Shown here piece by piece: positions 553-62,719 of a DNA stretch of 64,000 nt. The translations under genes were made by a program, and so were the position numbers. Under the pieces are notes generated by a model. The model had not been told where the DNA came from and did not search any database. It saw nothing but the letters and a program-made list of their open reading frames with translations. The stretch spans positions 124,001 to 188,000 of the forward strand of contig DQPL01000131.1 of assembly GCA_015664885.1 (NCBI GenBank), written 5' to 3'. The DNA is from Gemmatimonadota bacterium (lineage in GTDB: Bacteria; Gemmatimonadota; Gemmatimonadetes; Longimicrobiales; Gaopeijiaceae). Position 1 is the first letter of the stretch, and every line of letters begins with the position of its first letter.

Positions 553-638
553 AAATTCGATTTGCCGTGAGCCGTTCCAAGCCGTAGCCTATCGGTCGGT
601 TCCTGCACGATTTTGCCATGCCCTACGGGAGATGGATG

Positions 639-1865
639 ATGCCGAAGCGCCCACTGATGTTCGCCATAGCCTTGGTAGTGTCGGTTACGGCCCTCGCTTG
701 TGCCGCCGACGCACTCGACGACATAGCGATGGACACGGAAGGAATGGTTCCGACGTTCGAAGTCGATCCGTTCTGGCCAAAGCCGCTACCTAACCACTGG
801 ATCATGGGCGCGACGATCGGCGCAGACGTCGACTCTCGCGACCACGTCTGGCTCGTACAGCGCAACACGCCCGACCAGTTCGCGGGCCGCACCGAGCTCG
901 GCTCGGCACAGGACCCGGTACTCAGCGAGTGCTGCTCGCCGGCGCCGCCCGTGCTCGAATTCGATGCGGACGGCAACCTCGTCGGCTCGTGGGGAGGCCC
1001 GACCGATACGGGTGAGTGGGAGTGGCCGACGTCCAACCACGGCATCACCGTGGACCACAACGACAACGTTTGGATCGGCGGCAACGGCGGAGCCGACGCG
1101 CACATCGTGAAGTTCTCGCGTGACGGTCAGTTCCTGGCGCAGTACGGCCAGTCAGGGGCGCGGGCACGCGACGGCGGCGGCTTTGCGGCCAACAGCGACG
1201 ACGAGACGAGCTTCGGCCGAGTGGCCAAGATCTTCGTCGACGGCGTGGAAAACGAGGCCTATATCTCCGACGGCTACCTCAACCGACGGGTGGCAGTCCT
1301 CGACGCCAGCACCGGTGAGATGAAGCGCTTCTGGGGTGCCTATGGCGACGCTCCCATGGCCAGCGAGAATCCGGGCCGGTACGTGCCGGGCGAGACCCCG
1401 CCACAAGAGTTCCGCCCACCGGTGCACTGCGCCGAGCTCTCGGTCGATCGCCTGCTCTACGTATGTGATCGTCCGTCGAACCGGATCTCGGTATTCCAGA
1501 CCGATGGCACCTTCGTGAAAGAGGTGATCATCGCGCCCGCGACCTTGTCGCAGGGCTCGACCTGGGACATCGACTTCTCCCACGATCCTGAGCAGAGGTT
1601 CATCTACCTCGCCGATGGCCAGAACATGAAGGTCTACGTCATCGAGCGTGAGACGCTGGAGGTCCTGTACAGCTTCGGCGACGGTGGCCGGCAGCCTGGA
1701 CTCTTCTTCGCGGTTCACTCCCTCGCCGTGGACTCCCAGGGCAACATCTACACCACGGAGACCTACGAGGGTAAGCGCATTCAGAAGTTCAAGTACATGG
1801 GCATGGGCACCGTCTCCGGTAACGACGGAGCAGCGTGGCCGGCAGACCGACGCCGAGGCATGTAA
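639..1865 (+). CDS. PAL-like NHL beta-propeller, exported
   Basis: A 408-residue exported beta-propeller of the NHL type that resembles peptidyl-alpha-hydroxyglycine alpha-amidating lyase (PAL). PAL cleaves a hydroxylated glycine N-C bond using a Zn site and a Tyr/Arg pair. Residues matching the PAL set from memory are all present: Arg75 in 'LVQRN', His134 in 'NHGITVD', Tyr213 in 'SDGYLNRR', His263 in 'PVHCAEL' and His360 in 'AVHSLAV'. The start at 639 is chosen because GGGAG at 627-631 is spaced 7 bases from it; ATGs at 618 and 636 are alternatives. A hydrophobic signal peptide ends near 'ALACAAD', which is only a weak lipobox. A PQQ dehydrogenase lies just downstream on the other strand. 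PAL-like fold and active site are well supported; the true substrate is not. Confidence 0.75.
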   Translation: MPKRPLMFAIALVVSVTALACAADALDDIAMDTEGMVPTFEVDPFWPKPLPNHWIMGATIGADVDSRDHVWLVQRNTPDQFAGRTELGSAQDPVLSECCSPAPPVLEFDADGNLVGSWGGPTDTGEWEWPTSNHGITVDHNDNVWIGGNGGADAHIVKFSRDGQFLAQYGQSGARARDGGGFAANSDDETSFGRVAKIFVDGVENEAYISDGYLNRRVAVLDASTGEMKRFWGAYGDAPMASENPGRYVPGETPPQEFRPPVHCAELSVDRLLYVCDRPSNRISVFQTDGTFVKEVIIAPATLSQGSTWDIDFSHDPEQRFIYLADGQNMKVYVIERETLEVLYSFGDGGRQPGLFFAVHSLAVDSQGNIYTTETYEGKRIQKFKYMGMGTVSGNDGAAWPADRRRGM

Positions 1866-1963: not shown

Positions 1964-4072
1964 CTAGCGCGACTTCAACTTGAACACGTAGAGCGCGTTA
2001 CCGGAGTTGGGGTGGTGAATCTCCGGCGTAATCGCGCGTACGACGTTGCGCGGGCTTCCGCCACCCAGACCGGTCGTTACCGCGATGTACTGCTCGCCAC
2101 CCGCGCTGAAAGCCACAGGAAAGCCTTGAACCGAGGTGCCGAGGCGGGTCTGCCACAACTCTTCTCCAGTGCGCACGTCGTACGCATGGAAGTAGCGGTC
2201 TACATCACCTGCGAAGACGAGGCCTCCGTCGGTGGTCAGTGCGCCCGTCAAGAACGCCGCACGCTGCTCCACGCTCCAAAGCTCCTCCATGGTATCGATG
2301 TCGTAGGCCGCCAGCTTGCCGATCTTGCCGTCGCTGTCCGGCATCGCAAACCACGTCCGGTCGGCTGCGACGCCCCCCGAGCCCACCTGCAACGCCATCT
2401 CACGCCCCGAGATGTTGAGGCAGGTCTGACTCAGGGGAATGATGAGCGAGTTCGTAGGCGGGTTGAACGACATCGCCGGCCAGTTGTGGCCGCCAGCCGT
2501 GCTCGGGCACACTGCGAGCCACTCGCCAACCTTCGCGTCCACGATGTCCTGCCGGTACGTCACGGCGCCCGTCTTGGAGTCGATCTTCGTGAAGATGTTC
2601 TGATAGACGGTTTCTTTGTGGTCGAGGTACTGGCCGGTTTCGCGGTCGAGCTTCCAGAGGATTCCGTGCTTGCCGATGGTGAAGAGCAGTTTCTGCCCGT
2701 TGCTGTCGACCAGAACCTGCTCGAAGACCTCGTCGAGATCGAGCGCCTCTCCTGGTACGTGCTGGCGATACCACACGATGCGCCCGTCGTCCGGATCCAG
2801 CGCGAGCGTGGAGTTGCTGTAGAGCGCGGCGTCCTCCGTGGTCATGCCACGACTCGCGGGTACCCACGGCTTGGGCTGCGCCGTGCCCCAATACAGCAGA
2901 TCGAGCTCGGGGTCGTAGCCACCCGTGATCCAGGCATCGACGCCGCCACGCAGTTCGAAGGGGATGTCGCCCCACGTGTCCCCGCCGGGCTCCCCGGGAC
3001 GCGCGATCGTGAAGGTGCGCCACAACTCCTCGCCGGTTTCAGCGTCGTGCGCGGTGATGAAGCACGACTCCTCGAAGAAGCGCGTGCAGCCATTGATCCC
3101 GTTGATGACCTTCCCACGCGCGACCAGGGGTCCCGCGACGTTGGTAAAGCCCTGTCTGAAGTCCGCGACGTCCGTCTCCCAAACGAGCTCACCCGTCTTG
3201 GCGTCGAGCGCGACCAACGCTGCGTCCTTGGTGGGCACGTAGATCTTGTCACCGTAGATCGCGATCGAGCGGAGCTGCGTAAATCCTCCCCCACGGAAGC
3301 CCTCAGGGAAACCACGGCGGTACTCCCACAGCAGGTTTCCGGTCGCGCCGTCGAGCGCCTGAATCGTGTTCTCGGGATTCGTGAGGTAGATGACACCGTC
3401 GCGAACCAGGGGAGTCGGCTGGCTGACCCCGGCGTCCATCGACCAAACCCATGCCAGTTGTAGGTCGGCGACGTTGCCTCGATCGATCTGGTCCAGCGGG
3501 CTGTGCCCCCATCCATCATAGGTGCGGCGGTACATCAGCCAGTCGCCCGCCGCGGGGTCCCTCAACTCCTCGTCGCTCACCGACTTGAAGTCGACAATGG
3601 CCACATACGTCGACGTACGGCCCGGCCGTCCCCCGATGCCGCGACCGCGACCGCCCGGAGCCGTAGCGGTACGCTCCGGTGGCGAGCCGGTAGCGCCATT
3701 GAGCGCGCCTTCCGCGGCGACGGTCAGGGGTCGGGCTCCAGCCGGAAACCCGTTCCGCTCCAGGATGTACGCGACGACACCGGCATAGACGTCGTCTCCC
3801 AGCGAGTCCTCGTCGTCCGGCGGCATGGTGGTAGCGACGCTGAACAACTCGCCTACGGAGCGGCCGCCCCAGTAGCTGAGGAAGTTCGGCCCGGCGAGCT
3901 CGGGTGCCTCGAAGGACCCCAGCATGGTCTCCAGGTGGCACTCCGCACAGTGTTGCTCATACATCATGCGGCCGGCCGAGGCCTGGCCCGCGGTGAACGA
4001 GACGGACTCTTGCGCCAGGACCAAGCCTGGAAGCGTGCCCAGCGTGACGAGAGCAACGTGCACGGGCTTCAT
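1964..4072 (-). CDS. Cytochrome c / PQQ-dependent dehydrogenase fusion
   Basis: A 702-residue exported quinoprotein. A signal peptide (about 1-20, ending LVLA) is followed by a cytochrome c domain with 'CAECH' at 42-46, then an eight-bladed PQQ propeller from about residue 180 with repeated 'TGELVWE'-type tryptophan-docking motifs. Such enzymes oxidise alcohols or related substrates in the periplasm and pass electrons to heme c. The cytochrome is at the N-terminus, whereas classic type II quinohemoprotein alcohol dehydrogenases carry it at the C-terminus. The likely active-site stretch '[13 protein letters not shown]' has an Asp-x-Asp. Its ATG overlaps the stop of the upstream lipoprotein gene (ATGA), so translation is probably coupled. 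It is a close paralogue of the gene at 16996-19212. The family is secure; the substrate is unknown. Confidence 0.9.
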
Positions 4073-14744: not shown

Positions 14745-15575
14745 ATGCACTTGTGGCGTCCGTCAGTCGTTCTTGCGGCTGCCGTCTGTCTGTTCGCGGC
14801 ACCAAGCGAGGCGCAGGTCATCCCGCAGGAGGGGCGGGTTTTCAACGAACAGCTGCTTCGGCCGTCTGGCCAGGCGGTTGTCCCCCTATTCGAGGGATGG
14901 TTCGAGAACTCGGACGGCACCTCGGACATCTGCTTCGGATATTTCAACCTCAACACCGCAGAAGCCCTCGACGTGCCGCTGGGGCCGGACAACTTCATCG
15001 AGCCGAGCGAGTTCGACGGCATGCAACCGACGCACTTCGATCGCGTGCCGGAAGCCGGTTACCGACGTCATTTTTGCGTTTTCACCGTCACCGTGCCCGA
15101 GGACTTCGCTCAGGGCCGGGTGGTGTGGACGCTGCGCACACGAGGCGAGCCGCTCTCGACCCCGGGCAAGCTGCTGCCACCTTACTATTTGGACGAACCC
15201 GAGACCGGAGGCCGGGGCGTCGTGGCCCCTGTGCTCAAGCTGGACGCCGACGGACCCGAGTTCCAGGGTCGGACCGGCCTCACTGTCTCGCCCCGTACGG
15301 TCGCCGTTGGAGATCCGCTCACGTTGACGGTCTGGGTCGATCACCCGGCACCGAGAAGCTGGGTGGGCTGGACCGTGCACCAAGGGCCGGGCCACGTGGA
15401 GTTCGGCGAGGCCGAGATGCAAGTGGAGCAAGCAGACGGAACGGCGACCACGACGGCGAGATTCAGCAAGCCCGGCGAGTACCTCGTGCGGGTACAGTCT
15501 ATTTTCTCGACAACGTCTTTCGAATACCATTGTTGTTGGACGAACGGATACATCCCGGTGACGGTCACGCGATAA
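14745..15575 (+). CDS. Secreted 'CCWTNGY' protein, copy 1 (unknown family)
   Basis: A 276-residue exported protein with a signal peptide (cleavage near SEAQ, residue 23). I do not recognise a named family. The body is probably beta-rich. Two signatures recur in its paralogue at 61725-62708: 'GWFENSDGT...FGYFNLN' near 51-70 with 'EFDGMQPTHF' after it, and a C-terminal Ig-like strand 'FSKPGEYLVRVQ' followed by 'CCWTNGYIPVTVTR' at the very end. The vicinal Cys-Cys could bind a metal or form a disulfide. GGGAGG lies 5 bases before the ATG. It opens a five-gene operon, and in both copies it lies next to a cytochrome c/PHM-like gene, so the two proteins probably act together. Confidence 0.82.
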   Translation: MHLWRPSVVLAAAVCLFAAPSEAQVIPQEGRVFNEQLLRPSGQAVVPLFEGWFENSDGTSDICFGYFNLNTAEALDVPLGPDNFIEPSEFDGMQPTHFDRVPEAGYRRHFCVFTVTVPEDFAQGRVVWTLRTRGEPLSTPGKLLPPYYLDEPETGGRGVVAPVLKLDADGPEFQGRTGLTVSPRTVAVGDPLTLTVWVDHPAPRSWVGWTVHQGPGHVEFGEAEMQVEQADGTATTTARFSKPGEYLVRVQSIFSTTSFEYHCCWTNGYIPVTVTR

Positions 15576-15624
15576 AATGCGCATACGACAAACCAGCCTT
15601 TTACAGATAAGGGCGGAGGACATC

Positions 15625-16992
15625 ATGACAAGCGACAGCTCAAGCCACGGGCGATTTGAACAGGGCCTCGGCACCGGTCTGGCGACCCTGGTCATTCTGA
15701 CTTCACTCGCGACTTCGCCCGCGCACGCGCAGGAAGTGACGTACGCGAAGGACGTCGCTCCGATCCTCTACGAGAACTGTGCGAGCTGTCACCGTCCCAA
15801 CGCCTTTGCGCCGATGTCGTTGCTCACGTATGAAGACGCCAGGAGGTATGCGCCCCGCATCAGGGCGCGCGTCGAGGCGCGCATGATGCCGCCCTGGCAT
15901 GTGGATCGTAGCGTGGGAATCCAGGACTTCTCAAACGATGTATCGCTGAGCGACGAAGAAATCGAGACGATCGTTCGCTGGGTGGACGCGGGTGCACCCC
16001 AGGGTGACGAAGCGGGCATGCCGCCGCCGCCCGACCTGCTGGAGGGCGGTGCTTGGCAGCTCGAGCAGGAGTTCGACCGGCCGCCCGATTTGATCGTTCA
16101 GTCGACACCCTATGACGTCGTCGACAATGGACAGGACCAGTGGTGGGCACCGAGCGTGCCGTTCGAGGGCCTCGACGAAGACCGGTGGATCAAAGCGTAC
16201 GAATTCAAGCCGGCCTGGCCGATGGGCCTCAGGGTCGTTCACCACGGTCATGCCTACCTGCGAGTAGCCGGCCGACAGATCGGCCTTGCGCACTACGGAA
16301 TCGGGAAACGCTACGAGACGTTCCCAGACGACGTCGGCATGCTCTTTCCGGCCGGTGAGGCTGAAGTGACGTGGAATCTCCACTACTTCCCGGTCGGCAT
16401 CAACGTGCCTCAGGACGTCGTGGACGTCGGGGTGTGGTTCTACCCGAAGGGCGAAACGCCCAAGACCGAGACCCGGGGCGAGGTCTTGATGCGAGCCGAC
16501 CGCATGGGTGGCATGCCGAGGGGCGGCGACATCCTGGTTCCACCGCACGGGCAGCAAGTGCTGCAAGGCGTGCACGTGCTCGACGAGCCGACGCTGATCA
16601 CCAGTTTCAGGCCCCACCTGCACATGCGGGGCAAAGAAATGTCGATGGAGGCGATCTACCCGGACGGTCGGCGTGAGGTGTTGGGCAAGGTCTCCGATTA
16701 CAAGCACATCTGGCAGATCGCATACCAGTTCTCGCCGGACGCGAGGCCGCTCCTGCCCAAGGGCACGATGCTCATCTTCACGTCCGTGTTCGACAACACC
16801 GCCGCCAATCCGCTCAATCCCGATCCCGAGCAGTGGGTGGTATTCGGCAGACGCGGCGTAGACGAGATGTCCCACATGTGGGTGGGCATCACCGAGCTCC
16901 AGCAGGCGGAGTTCGATCGGCTGGTCGCTGAGCGCACGGCCAAGCTGGTCTCGGAGGAGGAACAGGGCGGAACCGAAGACCAGCGTCGCTAG
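15625..16992 (+). CDS. Cytochrome c fused to PHM-like copper monooxygenase domain, copy 1
   Basis: A 455-residue exported protein. After a signal peptide (about 1-36) comes a cytochrome c domain with 'CASCH' at 52-56. The rest matches copper type II ascorbate-dependent monooxygenases (PHM/DBH fold). Candidate CuH ligands are His206-His207 ('VVHHGH') and His253 ('WNLHYFP'); candidate CuM ligands are His331 and His333 ('RPHLHMRG') and Met415 ('DEMSHMW'). This spacing follows PHM, which hydroxylates a C-H bond. Fusion to heme c suggests electrons arrive through the cytochrome instead of ascorbate; that is inference. The start at 15625 is chosen because GGAGGA lies 6 bases upstream; an ATG at 15577 just after the previous stop lacks a ribosome site. 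The operon continues 3 bases later. Confidence 0.82.
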   Translation: MTSDSSSHGRFEQGLGTGLATLVILTSLATSPAHAQEVTYAKDVAPILYENCASCHRPNAFAPMSLLTYEDARRYAPRIRARVEARMMPPWHVDRSVGIQDFSNDVSLSDEEIETIVRWVDAGAPQGDEAGMPPPPDLLEGGAWQLEQEFDRPPDLIVQSTPYDVVDNGQDQWWAPSVPFEGLDEDRWIKAYEFKPAWPMGLRVVHHGHAYLRVAGRQIGLAHYGIGKRYETFPDDVGMLFPAGEAEVTWNLHYFPVGINVPQDVVDVGVWFYPKGETPKTETRGEVLMRADRMGGMPRGGDILVPPHGQQVLQGVHVLDEPTLITSFRPHLHMRGKEMSMEAIYPDGRREVLGKVSDYKHIWQIAYQFSPDARPLLPKGTMLIFTSVFDNTAANPLNPDPEQWVVFGRRGVDEMSHMWVGITELQQAEFDRLVAERTAKLVSEEEQGGTEDQRR

Positions 16993-16995
16993 GCG

Positions 16996-19212
16996 ATGCC
17001 TGCGTCTCTGACGAGGCCTCCGCGACTCGTTCGCATATCGCTCTTCCTCGCGGTCGCCATCTGGGTGTCGCCGGGCGTGCCGGCGGCCCATGGCACGGCC
17101 TCCGCGCAGCAGGCATCGTACACGCAAGATCAGGCTGAAGCCGGCGCGGCGGTGTACCGGGAGACGTGTGCGGAGTGCCACCTCGCGAACCTGAGAGGTT
17201 CGTTCGAGGCGCCGGAGCTGTCCGGTCGCAGTTTCCGGTCGACCTGGCGCGGCGGCATGGTGGCCGGTCTGCTCGACCTGATCCGAGAGACTATGCCTCC
17301 AGACGCGCCACGCACGCTGAGCGAGCAACAAACCGCATCGGTGGCGGCCTACCTGTTGCGCGAGAACGGAGTCTCGTCGGCCAATACCCCACTGAGCCTC
17401 TCCTCCCCGGGCCGAGTGTTCGTGGCGGAAACCACATCAGCGAGGCCGGCCCCAGGTGCCGAGCGTACACCGATCCCCGGGCGGGTCGGCACGGTGTCTT
17501 CACCGGGGGCAGTGAATGCCGCACCGGAAGTGGGCTCGCTCTCCGAGACGCCCACCGGGGTCACCCGCAGCTACGGTGTGCCCTCGCGTTTCACGCCGGT
17601 CTCCAACTCGGACCTGGCAGACCCCCCCAGGGGTGACTGGCTCCAGTGGCGTGGCAGTCCAGGAGCGCAGGGCTACAGCCCGCTGAGCCAGATCGACCGC
17701 CAGAACGTGGACCGTCTCCAGCTCGCCTGGGTGTGGGGCATGGAGCCTGGCACGAGTCAGTCGTCGTTCCTGGTGCGAGACGGCGTCATCTTCCTGCCCA
17801 GCCAGGCCAACGTCATTCAAGCGTTGGACGGCAAGGACGGTACGCTGCTGTGGGAGTACCGCCGGACGTTCGCAGAGGGTACCAGCATCGGACGGGGCCA
17901 CTTGAGGAGCCTCGCGATCTGGGAGGACCTGGTGCTGGTGGCCACGCTCGACGCCCACCTGGTCGCGCTCGACGCGCGCACCGGTGTCGTGCGCTGGGAG
18001 ACACAAGTCGCTGATCACGACCTGGGCTTCGCCTACAGTTCCGGCCCCGTCGTGGCCGACGGCAAGGTCATCACCGGCATCGGTGGATGTACTCGCTTCC
18101 AGGAGGAGAGCTGCTTCGTCACCGCCCACGATGCGCGCACCGGCAAGGAGCTCTGGCGCACCTACACGGTGGCCCGCCCCGGCGAGCCCGGCGGCGACAC
18201 TTGGGGCGACTACCCGCTCGAACTGAGAGGCGGCGCGGACATCTGGATCACGGGCAGTTGGGACCCCGAGCTGGGTCTCGTCTACTTCGGCACCGCGCAG
18301 GCCAAGCCTTGGATGGCGGCCAGCCGCGGGCTCACGACGGCCGACTCTACGCTCTACGCCAACTCCACGCTGGCGCTCGACGTCGATGACGGGCGCATCG
18401 TCTGGTACCGGCAGCACGTGCCCGGCGAGACGCTCGACATGGACGAGGCCTTCGAGCAAGTCCTCGTAGACGTCGACGGCGTGCCACTTCACCTATCCAT
18501 CGGGAAGTCCGGAATCCTGTGGAAGCTCGATCGGCGGGACGGGACCTTCCTGGGGCTGACGGAGACAGTCTACCAGAACGTGTTCGCGGGACTCGATCGC
18601 GAGACCGGTGCAATCCGCTACCGCGAGGACATCCAAAACGCCCAGTTGGGTGAATGGCTCTCTGTCTGCCCGTCCACCGCGGGAGGCCACAACTGGCCCT
18701 CTACCGCGTTCTACCCGCAGAGCGCACTGCTCGTGGCCCCCTTGAGCCAGAGCTGCATGGAGATGTCCGCGCGTCCGACGACCCTGGAAGTCGGGAGGGG
18801 CGGTACCTCGGCGGTCCGCATGTGGATGCCGATGCCTGGCAAAGAGGGGCGGTTCGGCAAACTGGCCGCCTACGACGTGCGCACACTGGACGAGGTCTGG
18901 AGTGTAGAGCAGGAAGCGCCTTTCCTGACTGGCGTGCTCACGACCGGCGGCGGGCTCGCCTTCGTGGGAGACTACGACCGCTGGGTACGTGCCTACGACG
19001 TGGACACCGGGGAGCCACTTTGGGAGAGTCGATTAGGCAGCTCGGTGGAGGGCTTCCCGGTCAGCTTCGAGATCGACGGCGTCCAGTACATCGGCATCCC
19101 GACCGGGCGAGGTGGCGGCAGTCCGTGGCGCATCGGAAACTTCCTCACGCCCGGACTCGTGAGCCCGAGCGGCCACAATGCGCTCTACGTCTTCAAGCTC
19201 GGCGGGTCCTAG
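16996..19212 (+). CDS. Cytochrome c / PQQ-dependent dehydrogenase fusion, second paralogue
   Basis: A 738-residue exported quinoprotein with the same order as the gene at 1964-4072: signal peptide (about 1-38), cytochrome c with 'CAECH' at 58-62, a low-complexity linker, then an eight-bladed PQQ propeller from about 210. Shared stretches such as 'GSFEAPEL' and '[10 protein letters not shown]' show common origin. The likely catalytic segment is '[16 protein letters not shown]', again with Asp-x-Asp. It would oxidise an alcohol or hemiaminal-like product in the periplasm and reduce its own heme. It begins 3 bases after the PHM-like gene stops and the next gene begins on the base after its stop, so the three are surely co-expressed. 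Confidence 0.9.
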
Positions 19213-20244
19213 ATGAGGCGTTTCATGCAGCTCAGAACTCTGTCGCTGTTTGCAGCGCTTCTGACAGCCGCGGCCGCGGACGCCAGCGCCCAATCGTCCG
19301 GGGCATATCGCGTGGTCGACGACTGGGCCACGCTCCCTGACGGGAGAGCCTGGGGAGCAGTGACCGGCGTCTTCCCCGACCCGGACGGAAGGCACCTGTG
19401 GGTGCTGGACCGATGTGGGGCCAACAGCTGTCTGGGCTCGGATCTGGACCCCGTTCTCAAGTTCGACCTCGCAGGAAACCTGGTCGCGAGCTTCGGCGCT
19501 GGGCTCTTCGCTTGGCCGCACGGCTTCTACGTGGACGCCGCCGGCAACATCTGGGTCACTGATGGTCCCACGGGTGCACGCGCCGAAGCGGGAGCCGCCG
19601 AGCAAAAAGGGCAGCAGGTCTTCAAGCTCAGCCCGGAAGGCAGAGTCCTCATGACGCTGGGCATCGCCGGCGTCTGGGGGGGACCGGCGGATCAAGACCG
19701 CTTCAACGGCCCGTCCGATGTGCTGGTGGCTCCAACCGGCGAGATCTACGTGCTGGACGGCCACGGCGAGGGCGGCAACAACCGCGTGGTCAAGTTCACC
19801 AGCGATGGTCGCTTCGACCTCAGTTGGGGGACGGGAGGACCAGGACCCGCCGCAGGCGAGCTCTCTGACGCGCACGCGATCGCGATGGACTCCCAGGGAC
19901 GGATCTTCGTCGGCGATCGTCGCAACATCCGCATCCAGATTTTTGATCGCGACGGGAATTTTCTGGAGCAGTGGAGCCATTTCGGTCCACCGAGCAACAT
20001 CTACATCGATGCCAACGATGTCATGTACGTGACCGACACCCAGACGGGCGCGCTACCCGGGTGGTACGCGGAGCGGCGGGGTGAAGGATGGGTCCGAGGC
20101 ATCCGGGTCGGGGACGCTAGGACCGGCCTGGTGACCGACTTCATACCGAGTGACGCGGAATTCGCGGCGGCGGATCGCGCGGGCAACGTGTACGGGGCTC
20201 AGGTGCCAGGCCAGACGCTGGTGAAGTACGAGAGCATCCGCTAG
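19213..20244 (+). CDS. PAL-like NHL beta-propeller in the PHM operon
   Basis: A 343-residue exported NHL propeller (signal peptide ending near ADASAQ, residue 27). Compared with peptidylglycine lyase (PAL), it keeps Arg67 ('VLDRCG'), His103 ('WPHGFYVD') and His221 ('DAHAIAMDSQG', followed by 'GDRRNIRIQIF'). The catalytic Tyr position seems to be His184 ('LDGHGEGGNNR'), and the third Zn His is not obvious near 'PSDAEFAAAD'. It may therefore be a PAL-fold protein with altered chemistry or a substrate-binding propeller. It starts directly after the PQQ gene's TAG (TAGATG). Location beside a PHM-like gene is suggestive, since PHM and PAL are partner activities in animals; that link is inference. 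Confidence 0.78.
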   Translation: MRRFMQLRTLSLFAALLTAAAADASAQSSGAYRVVDDWATLPDGRAWGAVTGVFPDPDGRHLWVLDRCGANSCLGSDLDPVLKFDLAGNLVASFGAGLFAWPHGFYVDAAGNIWVTDGPTGARAEAGAAEQKGQQVFKLSPEGRVLMTLGIAGVWGGPADQDRFNGPSDVLVAPTGEIYVLDGHGEGGNNRVVKFTSDGRFDLSWGTGGPGPAAGELSDAHAIAMDSQGRIFVGDRRNIRIQIFDRDGNFLEQWSHFGPPSNIYIDANDVMYVTDTQTGALPGWYAERRGEGWVRGIRVGDARTGLVTDFIPSDAEFAAADRAGNVYGAQVPGQTLVKYESIR

Positions 20245-20290
20245 TCGGCGGGATCACAACGGAAGCCTACTTCCGCGTGTCAGCCACTTC

Positions 20291-22621
20291 ATGATGATTC
20301 CCCACCGACCTCCGACGGGCTGGATCGCGGTCGTGGCTTTGATCGCGACATGGACCACGCTCGCAGACCCGCCCAGGCTGACCGCTCAGTCGGGCTCGGG
20401 CGTCGGAGTCGAGGGCCCCGCCCCACCGGTAGCGCCCGAGGTCATCACCCGCGACGACCTCGGCAATGCCACGGTGCGCGCGGTCCGGTTGACGCAACCG
20501 ATTCAGCTCGACGGACAGCTCGATGAAGCCTTCTACCAAGTGACCCATTCCATCTCGGACTTCATCCAGAGCGTGCCGGACGAGGGTGAGCTCGCGACCG
20601 AGCGGACCGAGGCATGGCTCGCTTTCGACGACGTGGACATCTACGTGTCAGCGCGGGTCTGGGACTCCGCGCCGGAAAGCGAGTGGGTCGCCAATGAGCT
20701 ACGCCGCGACACGCAGCAGCTCAGGCAGAATGACACGTTCGGGGTGATGTTCGACACGTTCTACGATCGCCGAAACGGCGTGATGTTCTACACGAATCCA
20801 CTCGGCGCGCTCGCCGAGTTCGGGATCACCAACGAGGGCAATCCGAACAGCGACTGGAACCCCGTGTGGGACGTGCGCACCGGCCGCTTCGAGGGCGGTT
20901 GGACCGTCGAGATGCGAATCCCGTTCAAGTCACTTCGCTATCGACCCGGCTCAGAGCAGGTATGGGGCCTCCAGATGAGGCGGGCGGTCCGTCGGAAGAA
21001 CGAGTGGACCTATCTCACACTGGTACCCAGTGCGGCATCGGGCGGAGGCCCGGCGGGGTCGTTTCGGGTGTCGAGGGCAGGTACGCTGGTCGGGCTGGAG
21101 GCGCCTGCTGCGAGCAGGGTCATCGAGGTCAAGCCGTACGGCATTACGGGGATTCAGACCAACGTGATGACCGTTCCCGAGCTTCGGAACGACTTCAGCG
21201 CGGACGCGGGGTTGGATCTCAAAATCGGGATCACCGACAACCTGACCTCCGATTTCACCTTCAACACCGATTTCGCGCAAGTCGAAGTCGATGAACGGCA
21301 GGTGAACCTCACCCGGTTCGACCTATTCTTCCCCGAGAAGAGAGAATTCTTTCTGGAAGGTCGAGGCATCTTCGGTTTCGCGACCCCGGGCGTAAACCGG
21401 GGGTCTGGTCCCGGCGGTCGGGGCAGTGGCGTAAGAGCCCCAACGCTGTTTTTCAGCCGACGCATCGGCCTTCAGGGCGGCCAGCCCGTGCCGGTCCTGG
21501 GCGGAGGACGGATGACGGGGAAAGTGGGCGCTTTCGATGTTGGCGCCCTGAGCATCCGGACCGACGATCTGGAGAGCGCGGGCGCGGTGTCGACGGTCTT
21601 CACGGTACTCCGGCTGCGCAGGGACATCCTGCGTCGCAGCAGCGTGGGCGTGATGTTCGAGAACCGATCAGAGTCCGTCGTGGGGCCCGGATCCAACCAG
21701 GCGTACGGGGTCGACGCCACCTTCTCGTTCTTTGAAAACCTGAATCTGCTGGGCTACTACGCGAAGACCGAAACCGAAGGGCTGACGGGGATGGACCACA
21801 GCTACCGGAGCCGTGCTAGCTACGACGGGGACGTGTGGGGAGTTCAGGTCGATCATCTGCTGGTGGGCGACGACTTCAACCCGGAGCTCGGCTTCGTATC
21901 GCGAAAGGGATTCCGTCAGAGCTTCCTCGCGGGCCGGTACAGCCCGCGGCCGGCATCCGTCGAGTCCATCCGCCAGCTCACGTTCGAGGCTCGGCTCAAC
22001 TACTTGGAAAACGCAGAGCTAGGGTTCGTCGAGACCCGGCAACGACTGGGCCATTTCGAAATCGAACTGGAGAACAGTGATTCCTTCAGCGCGGACTTTA
22101 CCGACACCTACGAGAACCTGACGCAAGCTTTCCCCATCGCTACGAACGTGACCATCCCTTTGGGACGATACGCTTTCCGCGACGTGCAGCTGCAGTACAG
22201 CTTCGGTCCCCAGCGGCCGTACTCGGGCGAAATGTCGGTAAAAAGGGGCAGCTTCTTTGGCGGCAACCGAACCTCCGTGGGCTTTCAGCAGGCCCGCATC
22301 GAAGTGCTTCCCCAACTCTCCGTCGAGCCCGGTCTCTCCTTCAACTGGGTCGATCTGCCTCAGGGCGACTTCACCCAGCACGTGGCCTCGGTGCGCGTCA
22401 GCTACAGCTTCTCACCGCGACTCTTCCTGAGCGGATTGCTCCAGTACAGCGACGGCAGTGATTCCTTCAGCACCAATTTTCGACTGCGTTGGGAGTACGC
22501 CGCCGGCAGTGAGATCTTCATCGTATATACGGAAGAGCGTGACACCGACGTATTCGACCGCTTCTCGGCACTATCGAACCGGGGCCTGGTCATCAAAGTG
22601 AATCGGCTACTCCGGCTCTGA
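20291..22621 (+). CDS. DUF5916 outer-membrane protein with CBM9-like domain
   Basis: A 776-residue exported protein. After a signal peptide (about 1-34) there is a CBM9-like domain ('IQLDGQLDEAFYQ', then 'DTFGVMFDTFYDRRNG' and 'WTVEMRIPFKSLRY'), followed by a beta-barrel-like region of the DUF5916 family with 'FFPEKREFFLEG' as its hallmark and alternating strands to the end ('LVIKVNRLLRL'). Such proteins are thought to sit in the outer membrane; their function is not established. A small hairpin, CGGAAG-CCTA-CTTCCG (20260-20275), lies in the 46-base gap before the start, so expression may be tuned separately within the operon. It is the last gene of the 14745 operon and may handle substrate or product passage. 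Confidence 0.85.
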   Translation: MMIPHRPPTGWIAVVALIATWTTLADPPRLTAQSGSGVGVEGPAPPVAPEVITRDDLGNATVRAVRLTQPIQLDGQLDEAFYQVTHSISDFIQSVPDEGELATERTEAWLAFDDVDIYVSARVWDSAPESEWVANELRRDTQQLRQNDTFGVMFDTFYDRRNGVMFYTNPLGALAEFGITNEGNPNSDWNPVWDVRTGRFEGGWTVEMRIPFKSLRYRPGSEQVWGLQMRRAVRRKNEWTYLTLVPSAASGGGPAGSFRVSRAGTLVGLEAPAASRVIEVKPYGITGIQTNVMTVPELRNDFSADAGLDLKIGITDNLTSDFTFNTDFAQVEVDERQVNLTRFDLFFPEKREFFLEGRGIFGFATPGVNRGSGPGGRGSGVRAPTLFFSRRIGLQGGQPVPVLGGGRMTGKVGAFDVGALSIRTDDLESAGAVSTVFTVLRLRRDILRRSSVGVMFENRSESVVGPGSNQAYGVDATFSFFENLNLLGYYAKTETEGLTGMDHSYRSRASYDGDVWGVQVDHLLVGDDFNPELGFVSRKGFRQSFLAGRYSPRPASVESIRQLTFEARLNYLENAELGFVETRQRLGHFEIELENSDSFSADFTDTYENLTQAFPIATNVTIPLGRYAFRDVQLQYSFGPQRPYSGEMSVKRGSFFGGNRTSVGFQQARIEVLPQLSVEPGLSFNWVDLPQGDFTQHVASVRVSYSFSPRLFLSGLLQYSDGSDSFSTNFRLRWEYAAGSEIFIVYTEERDTDVFDRFSALSNRGLVIKVNRLLRL

Positions 22622-24922: not shown

Positions 24923-25359
24923 TGTCCCGCCTCTCCTCTCACCGGTCCGAGCACTCCGAGCAAGCCGACTTGTGTCCGTGTACATAGCCAGCCTTCGCCT
25001 GCGGTCACGTCCGGGAAGGGTCGAGACAAAAAATCCCGGTGCTGAGTGCCTTGGGGTTAGGGCCTCTATCCTTTGAGGCCCCCCTTACGCACCAGCCCCG
25101 GGACGGGGTCGGTGGGTGGGGGGTCACAATCCACGCGACACCTCATTGCTTTTGCGTAAACCGTGCCAAATACGAAAATCGCCTCTTTCCGGCCGTTTCG
25201 GCGGATGGGACCCGCTTTGCGACCAACACATCTTTGCCGAGACGGATACTTCTTACCGGCTTCGCGAGGACGGCTCGGTGTGCGTTTTCCGCTTGCCACC
25301 ACTGCGAGGCACCCACTACCCTGCCTGCTTCCCAGCTTGGCGCCCACCTAAGGCACAAC
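24923..25359. other. Non-coding gap with a hairpin
   Basis: A 437-base stretch between the pseudopilin gene (leftward) and the LinD-like gene (rightward). No convincing gene is seen. It holds a GGGCCTC-TATCCTTT-GAGGCCC hairpin (25060-25081) and, around 25140-25190, a locally AT-richer patch that may carry the promoter of the LinD-like gene. Promoter boxes could not be assigned with confidence. Confidence 0.5.
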
Positions 25360-27147
25360 ATGAAATCCAGCGGCAGACCTTCTCGGCGAGACTTCATCAA
25401 GGGCGTAGGACTGACCATGGGCGCGGGGGCGCTGGGCACCTATCCGCCTGAGCTGTCGGGAGCGGCGCCCGTGAGGCCCAGCGCGGCGCCGCCGTCGGTA
25501 TTTCCGGAGCTCAACGACCGCGCCCTGGGTTGGCTCCAGTTCTTGTGGGAGAAGTCCACTACTCAGGACAACTGGAGCCGCTGGGGCATGCCCCATCCCT
25601 GGTGGGATCAATACAGCTTCCCCGGCGTCACGGGCTATCCGCGCTTCGATCTGCAATACTCGACGTATGCGGTGCTCATGATGGCGGACCGAACTCCGGC
25701 CTGGCGTGAGGCCTATACCCGCATCGTCGATGAGCTCGCGAGCCGTTACGTCACCTACTGGGGTGCGGTGGACTGGCTGACTCAGATCGGGCCGGACCCG
25801 GCGCGGGAGAACTACCCGCCTCAGTTCCGCGCAGGCATCCCCCAAGATCTTCGCGGCAACTACGACCGCATCGGGTGGACCGCGAACGGCGTGGAGCCGT
25901 GGGGCCTGCAAGAGGACCCGATCGGCGCCGACGGAAATCTCTTCTACAAGGGCTGGCTCGGCCTCACGCTCTCCATCTATCACTACGTCTCGGGGGACGA
26001 CAAGTGGGAGCAGCCATTCTCGGTCACGGGCTACCGGGACCAGGATTTCGAGTGGGATCATCACCGCATGGTCGAACTCATGGAGGCCCAGTGGCGCGCC
26101 CACCCCGAGGGGCCTCACTGCGAGAACACCAAGATCTGGCCGTTCTGCAACAGCGCCGCGGCGCTGGGCGTGTATCTCTACGACAAGATCCACGGCACGC
26201 AGAGGCACCTCGCCGTCCAGAACTGGTTGGAGTACCTGAAAGACAACTACATGGGGGTGTCCAGCGACGGAAACCTCGAATGGTTCACGAACTGGTACGA
26301 CCCCATCGTCAACCACAAGGCGAACGGTGGCGCGGGCTCGGGGCTCGGCCCCGCGTTCCTAATCCTGCCGCAGGACCCGGAGCTGGCCTCCTTCATTTAC
26401 GAGGCTTCGGCCAACGCAGCCGGGTGGAGCAATCCACGGGTAGCGGCGAGGCCCAACTCGACGGGTCTGTTGATGGCGCGTGAGGTGGGGGACGAGACCG
26501 CGATCGCGCGCTTGAGCGCTGCGGCAGAGCAAGCCTATGAGCCGCGTTTCTTTGGGGAGCACGGCGAGAAGTTCGGCTGGTGGTTCGGACTCAACGAGGG
26601 ATACCCGAGGGGACAGCGGAGCGCGATGATGATGGTCTCCGAGGTCGGCCAGGGAGGCGACTGGGCGCGCGCTTTCGAGGTTCCGCACATGGACAAATTC
26701 GACGCGCCAACGGTCGAGGGAGTCGACTTCCCCTCACTCGGCATTCGTCAGGCGTGGAACGACGTGGAGAGCGGGACCCTCTACGTGGGCACGTACGCCT
26801 CCACGCCAGATCGGCGCGGCGCCGAGACGAGCTGGCAGGTGACGAACCTGCCGAATCCAGACGACGTGTTCGTGATCTGCGACGGCCAGCCCTTCGAGCG
26901 CTTCGAGGCGGAGGGCCCCGGCACGATTCGCATCAATACGGACATCGACAGCCACCAGTTCCACATCTTCACCGACTATCGAGGTCGTGCAGCGCCGACC
27001 GGGGACCCATCAGGAGAACGGCCGAGCAGTAGCGGCTCGGCGGCCTTGGCGCTCGCTGAGCGGCCGGGTCGTGGCGCCGTTCCGAGCGCTCGCGCCGCAT
27101 CAAGCGAGTTGGTGCCGGATGGGAGTCCGGGCTGCAACTGCTGCTAG
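25360..27147 (+). CDS. Linalool dehydratase/isomerase-like protein, Tat-exported
   Basis: A 595-residue protein with a Tat signal ('SRRDFIKGVGLTMGAGALG'). The core resembles linalool dehydratase-isomerase (LinD): 'FDLQYSTYAVLMMADRT', 'DPIGADGNLFYKGWLGL' near 186-202, and 'CENTKIWPFCNSAA' with Cys254 and Cys263. The nine-residue Cys spacing equals that of the LinD catalytic pair as I remember it (Cys171/Cys180). LinD's His129 ('YKGH') is Trp199 here ('YKGW'), so the reaction is probably different. The C-terminus adds about 100 residues and ends in 'GCNCC'. The start is the ATG with AAGG upstream that gives the Tat motif. It is a single gene, convergent with Wzi. Confidence 0.72.
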   Translation: MKSSGRPSRRDFIKGVGLTMGAGALGTYPPELSGAAPVRPSAAPPSVFPELNDRALGWLQFLWEKSTTQDNWSRWGMPHPWWDQYSFPGVTGYPRFDLQYSTYAVLMMADRTPAWREAYTRIVDELASRYVTYWGAVDWLTQIGPDPARENYPPQFRAGIPQDLRGNYDRIGWTANGVEPWGLQEDPIGADGNLFYKGWLGLTLSIYHYVSGDDKWEQPFSVTGYRDQDFEWDHHRMVELMEAQWRAHPEGPHCENTKIWPFCNSAAALGVYLYDKIHGTQRHLAVQNWLEYLKDNYMGVSSDGNLEWFTNWYDPIVNHKANGGAGSGLGPAFLILPQDPELASFIYEASANAAGWSNPRVAARPNSTGLLMAREVGDETAIARLSAAAEQAYEPRFFGEHGEKFGWWFGLNEGYPRGQRSAMMMVSEVGQGGDWARAFEVPHMDKFDAPTVEGVDFPSLGIRQAWNDVESGTLYVGTYASTPDRRGAETSWQVTNLPNPDDVFVICDGQPFERFEAEGPGTIRINTDIDSHQFHIFTDYRGRAAPTGDPSGERPSSSGSAALALAERPGRGAVPSARAASSELVPDGSPGCNCC

Positions 27148-39555: not shown

Positions 39556-41433
39556 ATGCGCTCTACCCGTCTGATGATCACAAGCGTCGCATTGCTCGCA
39601 TCAGTTGTCGTCGAGTCGGCATGCGCCCCGCAAGAAGTCGAAGCACCGATGGCCGTCGACTGGCCGATGTATCGAGGCAACCTGGCTGGAACCGGGTATT
39701 CGCCACTGACGCAAATCACGACGGGGAATGTCGCGGAGCTGGCCGGCGCCTGGACCTACTCCCTGCGCAGTGCTCCGCCGACCGGCGCTGACGGCTCGAG
39801 CCAGACCCGCCAGCGAGAGCCGAACTCGCAGGTCACGCCGATCGTGGTCGGCGACGTCATGTACCTGTCTGCCGTGGACCGCGTGGTCGCGCTGGATCCA
39901 ACGACAGGTGCAGAGATCTGGCAGCACGCGGTCGAAGACGGCGCGCCCTCGCGGCGCGGCGTGGCGTACTGGGCCGGCGAGGACGGCACGCCCGCCCGCA
40001 TCATCTTCACGGCGGGGACACGGCTGGTAGCGATCGACGCAGCGACCGGCGCGCTGGCGGCGGACTTCGGCCAGGGCGGCGAGGTCGACATGGTGATCCC
40101 CTACAACTCGGTGCCGCTGGTGTACGAGAACATCGTCGTGGTCGGTGCGAATACGCCGCGCGGGACCAGTGGGGGCATCGGTAACGCACGCGCATTCGAC
40201 GCACGCACGGGCGCCAAGCTCTGGGAGTTCAGCTCCGTTCCGCAGCCGGGGAGCGTTGGACACGACACCTGGGAGGGTGACAGCTGGCAGGGCCGTCTCG
40301 GAGCCAACGCCTGGCCATTCTACTGGACTGTGGACGAGCAGCGCGGACACGTGTACCTGCCGCTCGCCTCGCCCATCCCTTTCGCATACGGCGGAGACCG
40401 CACGGGCGCCAACCTGTTCGCGAACTCGCTGGTCGCAGTCGACGTGCGGAGTGGTGAATATGTCTGGCACTTCCAGACCATCCATCACGACCTGTGGGAT
40501 CACGACCCGCCTGCGCCCCCCGTGCTCTTCCCCATCACGCGGGCCGGTAGCACGGTCGACGCACTCGGCGTAACCACCAAGTCCGGGTACATCTACATCC
40601 TCGATCGCGAGACAGGTGAGCCGATCTTCGGCGTTGAAGAGCGCGCGGTGCCGGCGAGTGATGTTCCCGGTGAGGTGACCTATCCGACCCAGCCATTTCC
40701 AGTGAAGCCTCAGGCGCTGGCGCGGACCAGTTACGAGCCGAGCGACATAGTCACCGCCGAGGACACGTCACCGGCACACGCCGCGGCGTGTGCCGAGCTG
40801 GTGGCAAGCGTGGGAGAGATCTACAACGAGGGCGCATTCTCGCCGTGGGTGTACCGCGAGGAAGGCGCGTCGCCCAGGGCCACTCTGCTGTTCCCTGGAC
40901 TGGTCGGCGGGCCCAACTGGGGTGGCCCCGCGTTCGATCCCAACTCCGGATACGTCTTCGTCTTCAGCCAGGATGCGGGTTCTTTCGCCTGGGTGGAGGA
41001 GGCGCCCGAAGGCTCGGCCGTGCCCTACCGGCGGAACGGCCCCCGACCTTCGGGCTTCGACGTGCGCATGGGGGATGCACGCTGGCCGTGCCAGAAGCCG
41101 CCCTGGGGCCGCATGACCGCCATCGACGGCTCGACCGGTGACATCGTGTGGGAACGCGCCGTCGGCATCACCGAAGGGCTACCCGCGGACCGGCAGAACA
41201 CCGGTCGGCCTGGGCGTGCAGCTGCGATCGTAACGGCCGGGGGCTTGCTGTTCGTGGCATCGACCGACGACAACCGTCTGCGCGCACTTGAAGCCGAGAC
41301 CGGCCGGGAACTCTGGGTGGTCACCTTGGAGCGGAGAGGCAACGCCGATCCCATGACGTACCTGGGCGCGGACGGGGCGCAGTATGTGGTGATCGTGGCT
41401 ACGGATGCCGTGGTGGCGTACAAGCTGCCGTAG
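39556..41433 (+). CDS. PQQ-dependent dehydrogenase, membrane-glucose-dehydrogenase-like
   Basis: A 625-residue exported quinoprotein without a cytochrome domain. The signal ends near 'VVESACAP'. The propeller opens 'DWPMYRGNLAGTGYSPLTQI' and carries 'TPIVVGDVMYLSAVDRVVAL', 'WHFQTIHHDLWDHDPPAPP' and 'GGPNWGGPAFDPNSGYVFV', typical of the PQQ glucose/quinate dehydrogenase group; Asp in 'LWDHD' is the likely catalytic base. AAGGAG lies 6 bases before the ATG at 39556; open sequence upstream overlaps the divergent gene and has no support. It would reduce quinone or a separate cytochrome. The sugar or alcohol substrate is not known. Confidence 0.87.
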   Translation: MRSTRLMITSVALLASVVVESACAPQEVEAPMAVDWPMYRGNLAGTGYSPLTQITTGNVAELAGAWTYSLRSAPPTGADGSSQTRQREPNSQVTPIVVGDVMYLSAVDRVVALDPTTGAEIWQHAVEDGAPSRRGVAYWAGEDGTPARIIFTAGTRLVAIDAATGALAADFGQGGEVDMVIPYNSVPLVYENIVVVGANTPRGTSGGIGNARAFDARTGAKLWEFSSVPQPGSVGHDTWEGDSWQGRLGANAWPFYWTVDEQRGHVYLPLASPIPFAYGGDRTGANLFANSLVAVDVRSGEYVWHFQTIHHDLWDHDPPAPPVLFPITRAGSTVDALGVTTKSGYIYILDRETGEPIFGVEERAVPASDVPGEVTYPTQPFPVKPQALARTSYEPSDIVTAEDTSPAHAAACAELVASVGEIYNEGAFSPWVYREEGASPRATLLFPGLVGGPNWGGPAFDPNSGYVFVFSQDAGSFAWVEEAPEGSAVPYRRNGPRPSGFDVRMGDARWPCQKPPWGRMTAIDGSTGDIVWERAVGITEGLPADRQNTGRPGRAAAIVTAGGLLFVASTDDNRLRALEAETGRELWVVTLERRGNADPMTYLGADGAQYVVIVATDAVVAYKLP

Positions 41434-49146: not shown

Positions 49147-51729
49147 ATGAGGTTCCTGACGTCCGCGACCACGCTCGCTATCCTAGCCTGCGGCGCCGCC
49201 CCGGCCACCGCGCTGGCTCCGCCGCCCGAGTCGGCGACGCTTACAGCGCCGCAACAGTTTCCAGGACGCGGACGCGGTGGTGGCGGTGACGGTGACGGTG
49301 ACGATCAGGAGGAGTCGTCCGGACCACGCCCTTACGAAGAGGTGGTGACCGACGAGGCCGAGACGCGCACGGGCATGTTCACCACGCACAAGATCGGCGA
49401 CAAGCTCCTCTTCGAGATCCCTGCAGAGATGCTCGGCCAGGACCAGCTCCTGGTCATCGAGATCGCGGAGACCGCTCTTGGCATCGGCTATGGCGGGCAG
49501 TCGATCGCCAACGACGTATATCGCTGGGAGAAGAAGGGTGATCGCGTGCTGCTGCGCGCCATCTCCTACGACGCGGTCGCGGATGGCTCGTCGGCGGAGG
49601 CTGATGCGGTCGACCGTGCTAACGTGGCGCCGATCGTGGCGGTCTTCGACGTGGAGGCCTATGGCGACGACGAATCGATGGTCATCGACGTAACCGAGAC
49701 ATTCACTGACCCGCCGCCGGAGCTCGGTCTTCGCGAGCGCGTACCTGGCAGCATCGACGGCGACCGCACCTGGATTGATCGGGCAGTACCATACCCCGAC
49801 AACGTGAACGTGTATTCGACACTCACCTTCCGTAACAGCGCGGCCAACGGTCGGGGTGGCCGTGGCGGGGCGCCGACGCCGGCCAGAGGCCGTGGGCGAG
49901 GCGGAAACAACAACCCCTCGAACACCGTGGTCGTGAGTTGGTCCTTCCATCATCTGCCGGACGTGCCGATGCAGGGCCGTCTCTGTGACGACCGCGTCGG
50001 ATACTTTTCCGCGCGCTTCACTGACTTCACGGACGAGAATAACCAGGTGAAGCAGACGTGCTACATCACGCGATACCGGCTCGAGAAGAAGAACCCGAAC
50101 GCGGCGATGTCCGACCCGATCAAGCCCATCATATACTACATCGATCCGGCGACGCCCGAGCAGTGGGTTCCGTACTTCAAGGCCGGCATCGAGGATTGGC
50201 AGGAGGCCTTCGAGGCGGCTGGCTTCAGCAACGCGATTCTGGGATTGGACGCGCCCGACGATCCCGACTGGTCGCCGGAGGATGCCCGCTATTCCGTCAT
50301 CCGCTGGCTGCCTTCGACGACCGAGAATGCTTCGGGACCGCACGTTCACGATCCGCGGTCCGGCGAGATCTTGAGTGCCCACATTCAGTTCTATCAGAAC
50401 GTCCAGCGTCTGCAGCTCACTTGGTATTTCACCCAGACGGCCGCCGTCGATCCGCGCGCTCGGGTCTTCCCGTTCGACGACGACCTGATGGGTGAGTTGC
50501 TACGCTTCGTCGTTGCGCATGAGGTTGGGCACACGCTCGGCTTTCAGCACAATATGAAGGCGAGTGCGATGTATCCGACGGACTCGTTGCGCAGTGAGAG
50601 CTTCCTGCGAGAGTGGGGCCATACGCCCACACTCATGGACTACGCGCGCTTCAACTACCTCGTTCAGCCCGAGGATAACATTCCGGTGGAACTATTGATC
50701 CCCAAGATCGGACCGTACGACGAGTGGGCCACGCGATGGGGCTATGCGGAGCTGGACGCCGACTCGCCCGAAGCGGAACGGGCGATCCTCGACGAATGGG
50801 CCCGCGAGCAGGACGATGCACCGTGGCTGAGATTCACGACCTCCGATGACGCGGGCAGTGACCCCGCGGACCAGACGGAGGCCGTCGGCGACGCAAACCC
50901 CGTGCTAGCGACGCGGTGGGGCATCGCCAATCTCGAGCGCTCGATGGCCTACCTCATCGACGCGACGGTGAAGCCGACCGAGGGGTACGACGACCTGGAG
51001 ACGCTCTACGGCCGTATGGTCGGACAGTGGCGGACCGAGTTGACCCATGTGGCTCGGCTCATCGGTGGTGCGGATACGCAGGAGCGGTACGGTAGTCAGC
51101 CGGGTGCGCGGTTCACGCCCGTGAGTCGCGCGCGCCAGAAGGAGGCCATCGAGTTCCTGAACGAGATGGCATTCCAAACGCCGGACTTCCTGCTCGTGGA
51201 CAGCATTGTGCGCCGTATCGAGCCCGTCGGCTCAATCGAGCGGGTTACCGCCGCTCAGGCCTCGGTCCTGCGTCAAGCGATCCAGAACAACCGTCTAATC
51301 CGGATGAGCGAGTACGCGCATGTGCTCGGCGCTGCGAACGCCTACACCATCCTGGAGCTTTTCGAGGACGTGAGGGACGGCGTATTCACCGAGCTCGCCG
51401 ATGCCTCCGAGATCGACGTCTTCCGGCGGTCGCTTCAGCGGCGCTACGTCGAACTCATGAGTAACAAGATCAACCCGGATCCGCCTCAGGAGGGTGGGGG
51501 CGGGCGTGGTGGCTTCCCCGGTGGTCGTGGGGGTGGCCCTCAACTGGATCCCGAGCTCTCCGACATCCACCCCGCGGTTCGCGCGCACCTGAGTGAGCTG
51601 GACGACATGATCGAGGCGGTGATACCGCGCACGGTGGACATGCAGAAGGCCCACCTCGAGGATCTCCGGTTCCGGATTTCTGAGGCGCTCAAGGGTCGCA
51701 CCGTCGGCGCCGGGCCGCCTATCGCCTAG
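49147..51729 (+). CDS. Secreted zinc metalloprotease (metzincin, DUF4953/DUF5117 type)
   Basis: An 860-residue exported metalloprotease. The catalytic motif is 'HEVGHTLGFQHN' (His458, Glu459), the HExxHxxGxxH pattern of metzincins. Family parts in order are 'ETRTGMFTTHKIGDKLLFEIP', shown here by its core 'GMFTTHKIGDK', then 'YYIDPATPEQWVPYFKAGIE', 'SGEILSAHIQFYQN' and the DUF5117/DUF5118-like propeptide and C-terminal helical region. Two glycine/arginine-rich insertions ('GRGRGGGGDGDGDD' and 'GRGGFPGGRGGGP') are probably flexible. It is followed by a convergent gene that overlaps its stop by 4 bases. Confidence 0.9.
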   Translation: MRFLTSATTLAILACGAAPATALAPPPESATLTAPQQFPGRGRGGGGDGDGDDQEESSGPRPYEEVVTDEAETRTGMFTTHKIGDKLLFEIPAEMLGQDQLLVIEIAETALGIGYGGQSIANDVYRWEKKGDRVLLRAISYDAVADGSSAEADAVDRANVAPIVAVFDVEAYGDDESMVIDVTETFTDPPPELGLRERVPGSIDGDRTWIDRAVPYPDNVNVYSTLTFRNSAANGRGGRGGAPTPARGRGRGGNNNPSNTVVVSWSFHHLPDVPMQGRLCDDRVGYFSARFTDFTDENNQVKQTCYITRYRLEKKNPNAAMSDPIKPIIYYIDPATPEQWVPYFKAGIEDWQEAFEAAGFSNAILGLDAPDDPDWSPEDARYSVIRWLPSTTENASGPHVHDPRSGEILSAHIQFYQNVQRLQLTWYFTQTAAVDPRARVFPFDDDLMGELLRFVVAHEVGHTLGFQHNMKASAMYPTDSLRSESFLREWGHTPTLMDYARFNYLVQPEDNIPVELLIPKIGPYDEWATRWGYAELDADSPEAERAILDEWAREQDDAPWLRFTTSDDAGSDPADQTEAVGDANPVLATRWGIANLERSMAYLIDATVKPTEGYDDLETLYGRMVGQWRTELTHVARLIGGADTQERYGSQPGARFTPVSRARQKEAIEFLNEMAFQTPDFLLVDSIVRRIEPVGSIERVTAAQASVLRQAIQNNRLIRMSEYAHVLGAANAYTILELFEDVRDGVFTELADASEIDVFRRSLQRRYVELMSNKINPDPPQEGGGGRGGFPGGRGGGPQLDPELSDIHPAVRAHLSELDDMIEAVIPRTVDMQKAHLEDLRFRISEALKGRTVGAGPPIA

Positions 51730-62708: not shown

Positions 62709-62719
62709 CGTCAGTACCC

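Follow-up and report, generated by a model that had tools for sequence, protein, structure and literature searches.

Conserved pairing of a heme c-fused PHM-like protein with an Ig-like partner, and its linkage to quinoprotein-type and PAL-related genes in a Gemmatimonadota genome

The conserved core of the locus analysed here is a two-gene module, g1 plus g2, and not the five-gene operon put forward in an earlier note on the same DNA. The module lies in the window (the whole 64 kb stretch of DNA that was analysed) at the head of a run of five genes, g1 to g5. We consider it reasonably probable that g1 and g2 form a conserved periplasmic module in which g2 would be a heme-fed dicopper monooxygenase and g1 its obligate partner, and that at this locus the module works with the products of the next two genes, g3 and g4. 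The proposal starts from the g1-g2 gene unit, the folds, the absence of variation in the metal and heme ligands, the co-divergence of the two genes and the recurrent linkage of g3, all of which are observed; the reaction, the direction of electron flow, the substrate and the role of each partner we infer.

All five genes are on the plus strand. g1 (14745-15575) encodes a predicted secreted partner protein of 276 aa with two Ig/MSP/PapD-like beta-sandwich domains and a C-terminal CCWTNGY; g2 (15625-16992), a predicted secreted protein in which heme c (CASCH; Met104) is fused to a PHM/DBH-type dicopper core; g3 (16996-19212), a 738-aa protein with an N-terminal cytochrome c, a PQQ-ADH-type propeller and a lanthanide-type motif, D481-x-D483; g4 (19213-20244), a PAL-like NHL propeller; and g5 (20291-22621), a CBM9/DUF5916 outer-membrane protein located downstream of, and outside, the conserved unit. 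The g2 reading frame extends from 15577 to 16992; its start was corrected to the ATG at 15625, which is preceded by a ribosome site of the GGGCGGAGG type, and g2 residue numbers are counted from the ATG at 15577. The gaps after this correction, 49, 3, 0 and 46 bases, are exact in the list of open reading frames, and the domains first assigned to the five proteins (CCWTNGY in g1, CxxCH with a PHM-like core in g2, cytochrome c/PQQ in g3, PAL-like in g4, DUF5916 in g5) hold, the last with a Pfam PF19313 match of 57.9 bits against a cut-off of 22.6. Each of the five reading frames opens with a signal-peptide-like stretch, read directly from the translations, and the products should therefore be exported. 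Scanning for promoters and terminators gave nothing exceeding shuffled sequences. The source genome is a near-complete MAG (~4 Mb, 99.3% complete). Further along the window, the gene at 25039-27147 (plus strand) encodes a member of the linalool dehydratase/isomerase family (Pfam PF18566, E 5e-17) that also matches a TAT signal weakly.

Across 121 genomes of the phylum, at least 100 of the 102 places occupied by g1 are adjoined within 1.5 kb by a g2 on the same strand; G000:C8, one of the two exceptions, does have an adjoining g2. The order varies, g1 being upstream in 34 of 100 pairs and downstream in 66. Where the window ends there is a second pair (minus strand, 61728-64000), with g2 upstream: this g2 paralogue (62720-64000) runs off the window end, and the g1 homologue occupies 61728-62708. 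In four additional genomes, identified from other loci, g2 stands beside 79 of 86 g1 genes. Among the g2 matches listed, 28 of 128 places are without g1, and most of these belong to a lower-scoring branch. In a mirror-tree comparison the g1 and g2 distance matrices correlate at r = 0.958 (73 pairs; 0 of 2000 permutations reach it), a result of the kind that would be expected for linked genes generally, and r is 0.94 inside each of two major clades. Since the two genes co-diverge, the pair duplicates as a unit.

The 73 pairs also share a pattern of cysteine motifs: in every one, either g1 has a CCW[TS]N end or g2 has a GCPLC C-terminus, never both (the second g2 of locus L040 is partial, yet shows GCPLC). 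Independent co-variation of the two motifs was rejected, as the labels fall into two clades with a single switch on the tree; being one evolutionary event, the switch counts as a single data point. The pattern is suggestive of a need for a cysteine pair somewhere in the g1-g2 complex. When the AlphaFold model of g1 (pLDDT 82.5) was compared with Foldseek, it yielded two Ig/MSP/PapD-like sandwich domains with no enzyme among the consistent matches, and neither solved structures nor Pfam provided a relative except for a weak PKD match. The idea that g1 is itself an enzyme was rejected for want of a convincing match in fold or sequence. Rather, it is probably an obligate secreted partner in most g2 members, either a subunit or a metallation/assembly factor.

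The module is present in many copies. The source genome has about 15 g2 places and about a dozen g1-g2 pairs. A Vicinamibacteria MAG of 4.2 Mb (G121, locus L040) has 39 g1 and 61 g2 matches, with 36 of its 53 clear g2 genes adjoined by g1; g1/g2 matches number 18/23 and 11/24 in two Gammaproteobacteria MAGs and 28/31 in another Gemmatimonadetes MAG. Sampling of 247 genomes from the phylum of the Vicinamibacteria MAG gave g1-like matches, some of them weak, in 25. Elsewhere the pairs adjoin genes for SusC/SusD, cupins, metallo-beta-lactamase-fold proteins, creatininase, M19/M20 peptidases and xanthine-dehydrogenase subunits, a set that hints at amide and C-N bond breakdown as the business of many of these neighbours.

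Description of g2 as a heme-fused PHM-like copper enzyme, already present in the earlier note, is borne out. Its CxxCH heme motif is CASCH (C68, C71, H72), with M104 as the second heme-site residue, and its candidate copper ligands are H222, H223 and H269 for one site and H347, H349 and M431 for the other. Every one of these residues is invariant in 86 of 86 full-length g2 homologues, drawn from several phyla, and because they never vary we take the heme and both copper sites to be under full constraint. Some homologues carry extra domains: a C-terminal extension in L019:2430-4274 (minus strand), redoxin in L041 and L046, TPR repeats in L047. Foldseek with the AlphaFold model of g2 (pLDDT 82.8) placed human DBH or rat PHM in all of its top 31 matches (E 7e-13 to 4e-9; best DBH 7.2e-13, PHM 2.6e-11, TM normalised by PHM ~0.6), the first match of any other kind being some thousand times weaker, at a TM-score of ~0.2; these model-based matches support a two-domain PHM fold.

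Alignment with hhalign to a single PHM sequence, that of the rat (a query agreeing with 1yjk except in the first residue), gave E 6e-4 at a probability of just 28.8%, and paired the LHY, PHLH and DEM of g2 with the VHY, VHTH and DEM of PHM, that is, with H172, H242/H244 and M314. H269 is in this way aligned with H172, and the CuM-type ligands H347, H349 and M431 with H242, H244 and M314, which we take to be the CuM ligands of PHM. The HH pair (H222, H223) falls immediately ahead of the aligned stretch and was matched to H107 and H108 by motif and order; the identity of the CuH ligands of PHM follows published work (PMC6123673). Profile searches were less responsive to g2: Pfam PF03712 (Cu2_monoox_C) matched below its cut-off (E 0.049; 13.5 bits against 23), PF01082 was not among the matches, and PHM was not found by profile search of PDB sequences. 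The disulfide cysteines of PHM are absent, g2 having, on direct reading, no Cys beyond the CASC pair. Such large divergence, with a Pfam match below cut-off and none of the disulfide cysteines, would suit a copper protein whose redox role is not that of a monooxygenase but, for example, that of an oxidase or sensor, and which had kept the PHM ligands and used its heme as an electron acceptor; but the six catalytic ligands, the CuM methionine included, are invariant, a fact hard to explain without PHM-type O2 chemistry, and we hold this alternative to be distinctly unlikely. Most likely, g2 is an O2-dependent periplasmic copper monooxygenase which receives electrons via its own heme, maybe from g3.

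The g3 protein combines a cytochrome c with a PQQ propeller (E 1e-62), and the solved structures nearest to it are PQQ alcohol dehydrogenases (4cvb, E 1e-101). Asp481 (catalytic), Asp483 and Lys504 (PQQ contact) are invariant in 8 of 8 sequences, and D481 and K504 are aligned with their counterparts in 4cvb. The D-x-D arrangement is treated as a lanthanide motif in work that also describes sorbose dehydrogenases, putatively lanthanide-dependent, close to 4cvb (PMC11996626). The propeller and the catalytic residues thus agree with the original naming of g3 as a PQQ enzyme, but that name is weakened by the genome around it. PqqC is present in 17 of 121 genomes of the phylum, the other genomes of which served as the positive control for the search, and absent from the source genome and all of the family's listed genomes; PqqE is likewise absent from source genome and family, and the two proteins agree in seven genomes tested. 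Three more PQQ-type propeller genes were seen in the window of this genome without PqqC and PqqE, at 1964-4072 (minus), 39649-41433 (plus) and 51726-53747 (minus).

Because the genome is without PqqC and PqqE, g3 must either scavenge its PQQ or be empty. That it is an empty quinoprotein scaffold, not a dehydrogenase, would account for the absence of both proteins from a genome and family whose phylum has them elsewhere, and would accord with its 292-bit match to TIGR04528, the 'acido-empty-quinoprotein' group A. That match, however, is far under the cut-off of 650 and is exceeded by the one to TIGR03075 (357 bits), the residues of the active site (Asp481, the D-x-D pair, Lys504) show no variation, and scavenging of PQQ is possible. 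We judge an empty g3 to be rather unlikely and lean, since the catalytic residues persist, towards a g3 that would work with scavenged PQQ.

Searching related genomes for the gene order upheld the operon in part: g1-g2-g3-g4 recurs, but conservation does not extend to g5. G116, a genome of the same genus, as well as G085/L039, L028 and L029 (the last cut by the contig end) share the window's four-gene order, with about 65-93% identity per gene. L027 has g1-g2-g3; the order g3-g1-g2 is found in G045, G078, G086 and G099; in L032 a DUF5916 gene accompanies g2-g1-g3. g3 orthologues adjoin g1-g2 in 7 of 121 genomes, in two different orders. The fifth gene is missing at the corresponding place in G116, G085, L028 and L039 and for this reason is placed outside the conserved unit, which leaves g1 and g2 as the real core in place of the five genes first proposed. 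Should the non-conservation of g5, and the many unrelated contexts in which g1-g2 pairs occur, be taken to mean that the five genes are merely neighbours with any functional link confined to g1-g2, then the finding of g3 orthologues beside the pair in two orders, joined by g4 in several genera, would be difficult to accommodate; we think this reading very unlikely.

Homology marks g4 as a genuine PAL relative: with rat PAL as query (identical to 3fvz over its length), hhalign returned E 1.7e-25, probability 99.7 and 35% identity over 230 aa, and g4 has NHL repeats. In PAL we take the zinc histidines to be H585, H690 and H786 and the catalytic tyrosine to be Tyr654, and also consider R533 and R706. 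Of these, H585, H690 and R706 are kept in g4 as H103, H221 and R236, and R533 is probably R67, outside the aligned range; the third zinc ligand, H786, becomes E316 in g4-type proteins, and Y654 becomes H184. The relationship to PAL asserted at the outset is secure, but the two replacements weaken the claim of lyase activity; a His2Glu metal site in g4 is possible, and classical PAL chemistry doubtful. By alignment, none of the PAL active-site residues (Arg, His, Tyr, His, Arg, His) is missing from a second NHL propeller of the window (636-1862, plus strand), which has homologues in 55 of the 121 genomes of the phylum. It was rejected as the true partner of g2, occurring within 10 kb of g2 3 times against 2.4 expected.

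Genes like g4 are found within 10 kb of g2 12 times against 3.4 expected, a count for which p-values are optimistic, the genomes being related. Together with the descent of g4 from the PAL line and the conservation of g1-g2-g3-g4 in several genera, this excess would fit a sequential pathway, g2 hydroxylating a C-H next to N or O and g3 then oxidising, or g4 cleaving, the product, in effect a periplasmic PAM-like route with heme c replacing ascorbate. We regard such a pathway as unlikely, in that Glu replaces one zinc His of g4 and His its catalytic Tyr, the propeller in which those residues survive is no more often near g2 than chance predicts, and L027 and the g3-g1-g2 genomes have no adjoining g4.

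In the mechanism that we favour, g2, with its PHM/DBH fold, would act as an O2-dependent dicopper monooxygenase whose own c-type heme replaces ascorbate as the supply of electrons to the copper sites, assisted by g1 in one of the two capacities suggested above. The g3 protein, a quinohemoprotein-type dehydrogenase with a heme of its own, might pass electrons to g2 heme-to-heme, or else oxidise the product of g2, and the PAL-derived propeller g4 may process the hydroxylated product. This partnership of g3 and g4 with the module is proposed for the window's paralogue and its orthologues. Dehydrogenase-heme systems that feed electrons to a copper enzyme are known, cellobiose dehydrogenase doing so for LPMO. 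A broader picture, offered tentatively, is that PHM-type copper monooxygenases driven by heme c, together with their obligate partner of Ig-like fold, make up a large, undescribed family in bacteria, and that some MAGs of Acidobacteriota, Gammaproteobacteria and Gemmatimonadota carry dozens of such pairs; at this locus the family would contribute to a periplasmic route resembling PAM, along with a protein descended from PAL and a (possibly lanthanide) PQQ dehydrogenase giving electrons heme-to-heme in place of ascorbate.

PHM and DBH are mainly known from animals, where they draw electrons from ascorbate and where a PHM-type enzyme finishes peptide hormones. The parts of the module belong to known superfamilies. 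In the open-licence literature we found no published cytochrome c-PHM fusion with a g1-type partner, which is weak evidence of absence, and no published description of a PQQ-type dehydrogenase and then a PAL-like propeller encoded after g1-g2. If the proposal is right, a bacterial branch of PHM that carries heme, depends on an obligate partner and occurs tens of times in a genome would amount to a sizeable reservoir of unexplored O2-dependent C-H oxidation in uncultured bacteria, and the origin of PHM and PAL, as well as ascorbate-free electron supply to copper monooxygenases, would become directly testable.

Comparison with known systems can be made protein by protein. In its propeller, catalytic Asp, Lys and D-x-D, g3 resembles the PQQ alcohol/sorbose dehydrogenase 4cvb and the putative lanthanide sorbose dehydrogenases (PMC11996626); unlike the 4cvb-type enzymes it has an N-terminal cytochrome c, resides in a genome without PqqC and PqqE, and is linked to g1-g2. 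g4 shares with the PAL domain of peptidylglycine alpha-amidating monooxygenase (3fvz) the NHL propeller, two zinc His, R706 and probably R533, but has Glu316 for the third zinc His and His184 for the catalytic Tyr, and is a separate gene. g2 is like PHM and DBH in fold, in the flanking motifs and in having the CuH His3 and CuM His2Met ligands in the same order; it differs from them in the N-terminal heme c, which stands in place of the DOMON domain of DBH or the ascorbate feed, in its lack of the disulfide cysteines, in an identity of about 15%, in the obligate g1 partner of most members, and in being bacterial with many paralogues. Finally, g3 and g2 taken together recall cellobiose dehydrogenase and LPMO, by an analogy from general knowledge, in that a dehydrogenase with heme could feed a copper monooxygenase; the folds are different, however, the heme is c here and b there, and here both partners carry one.
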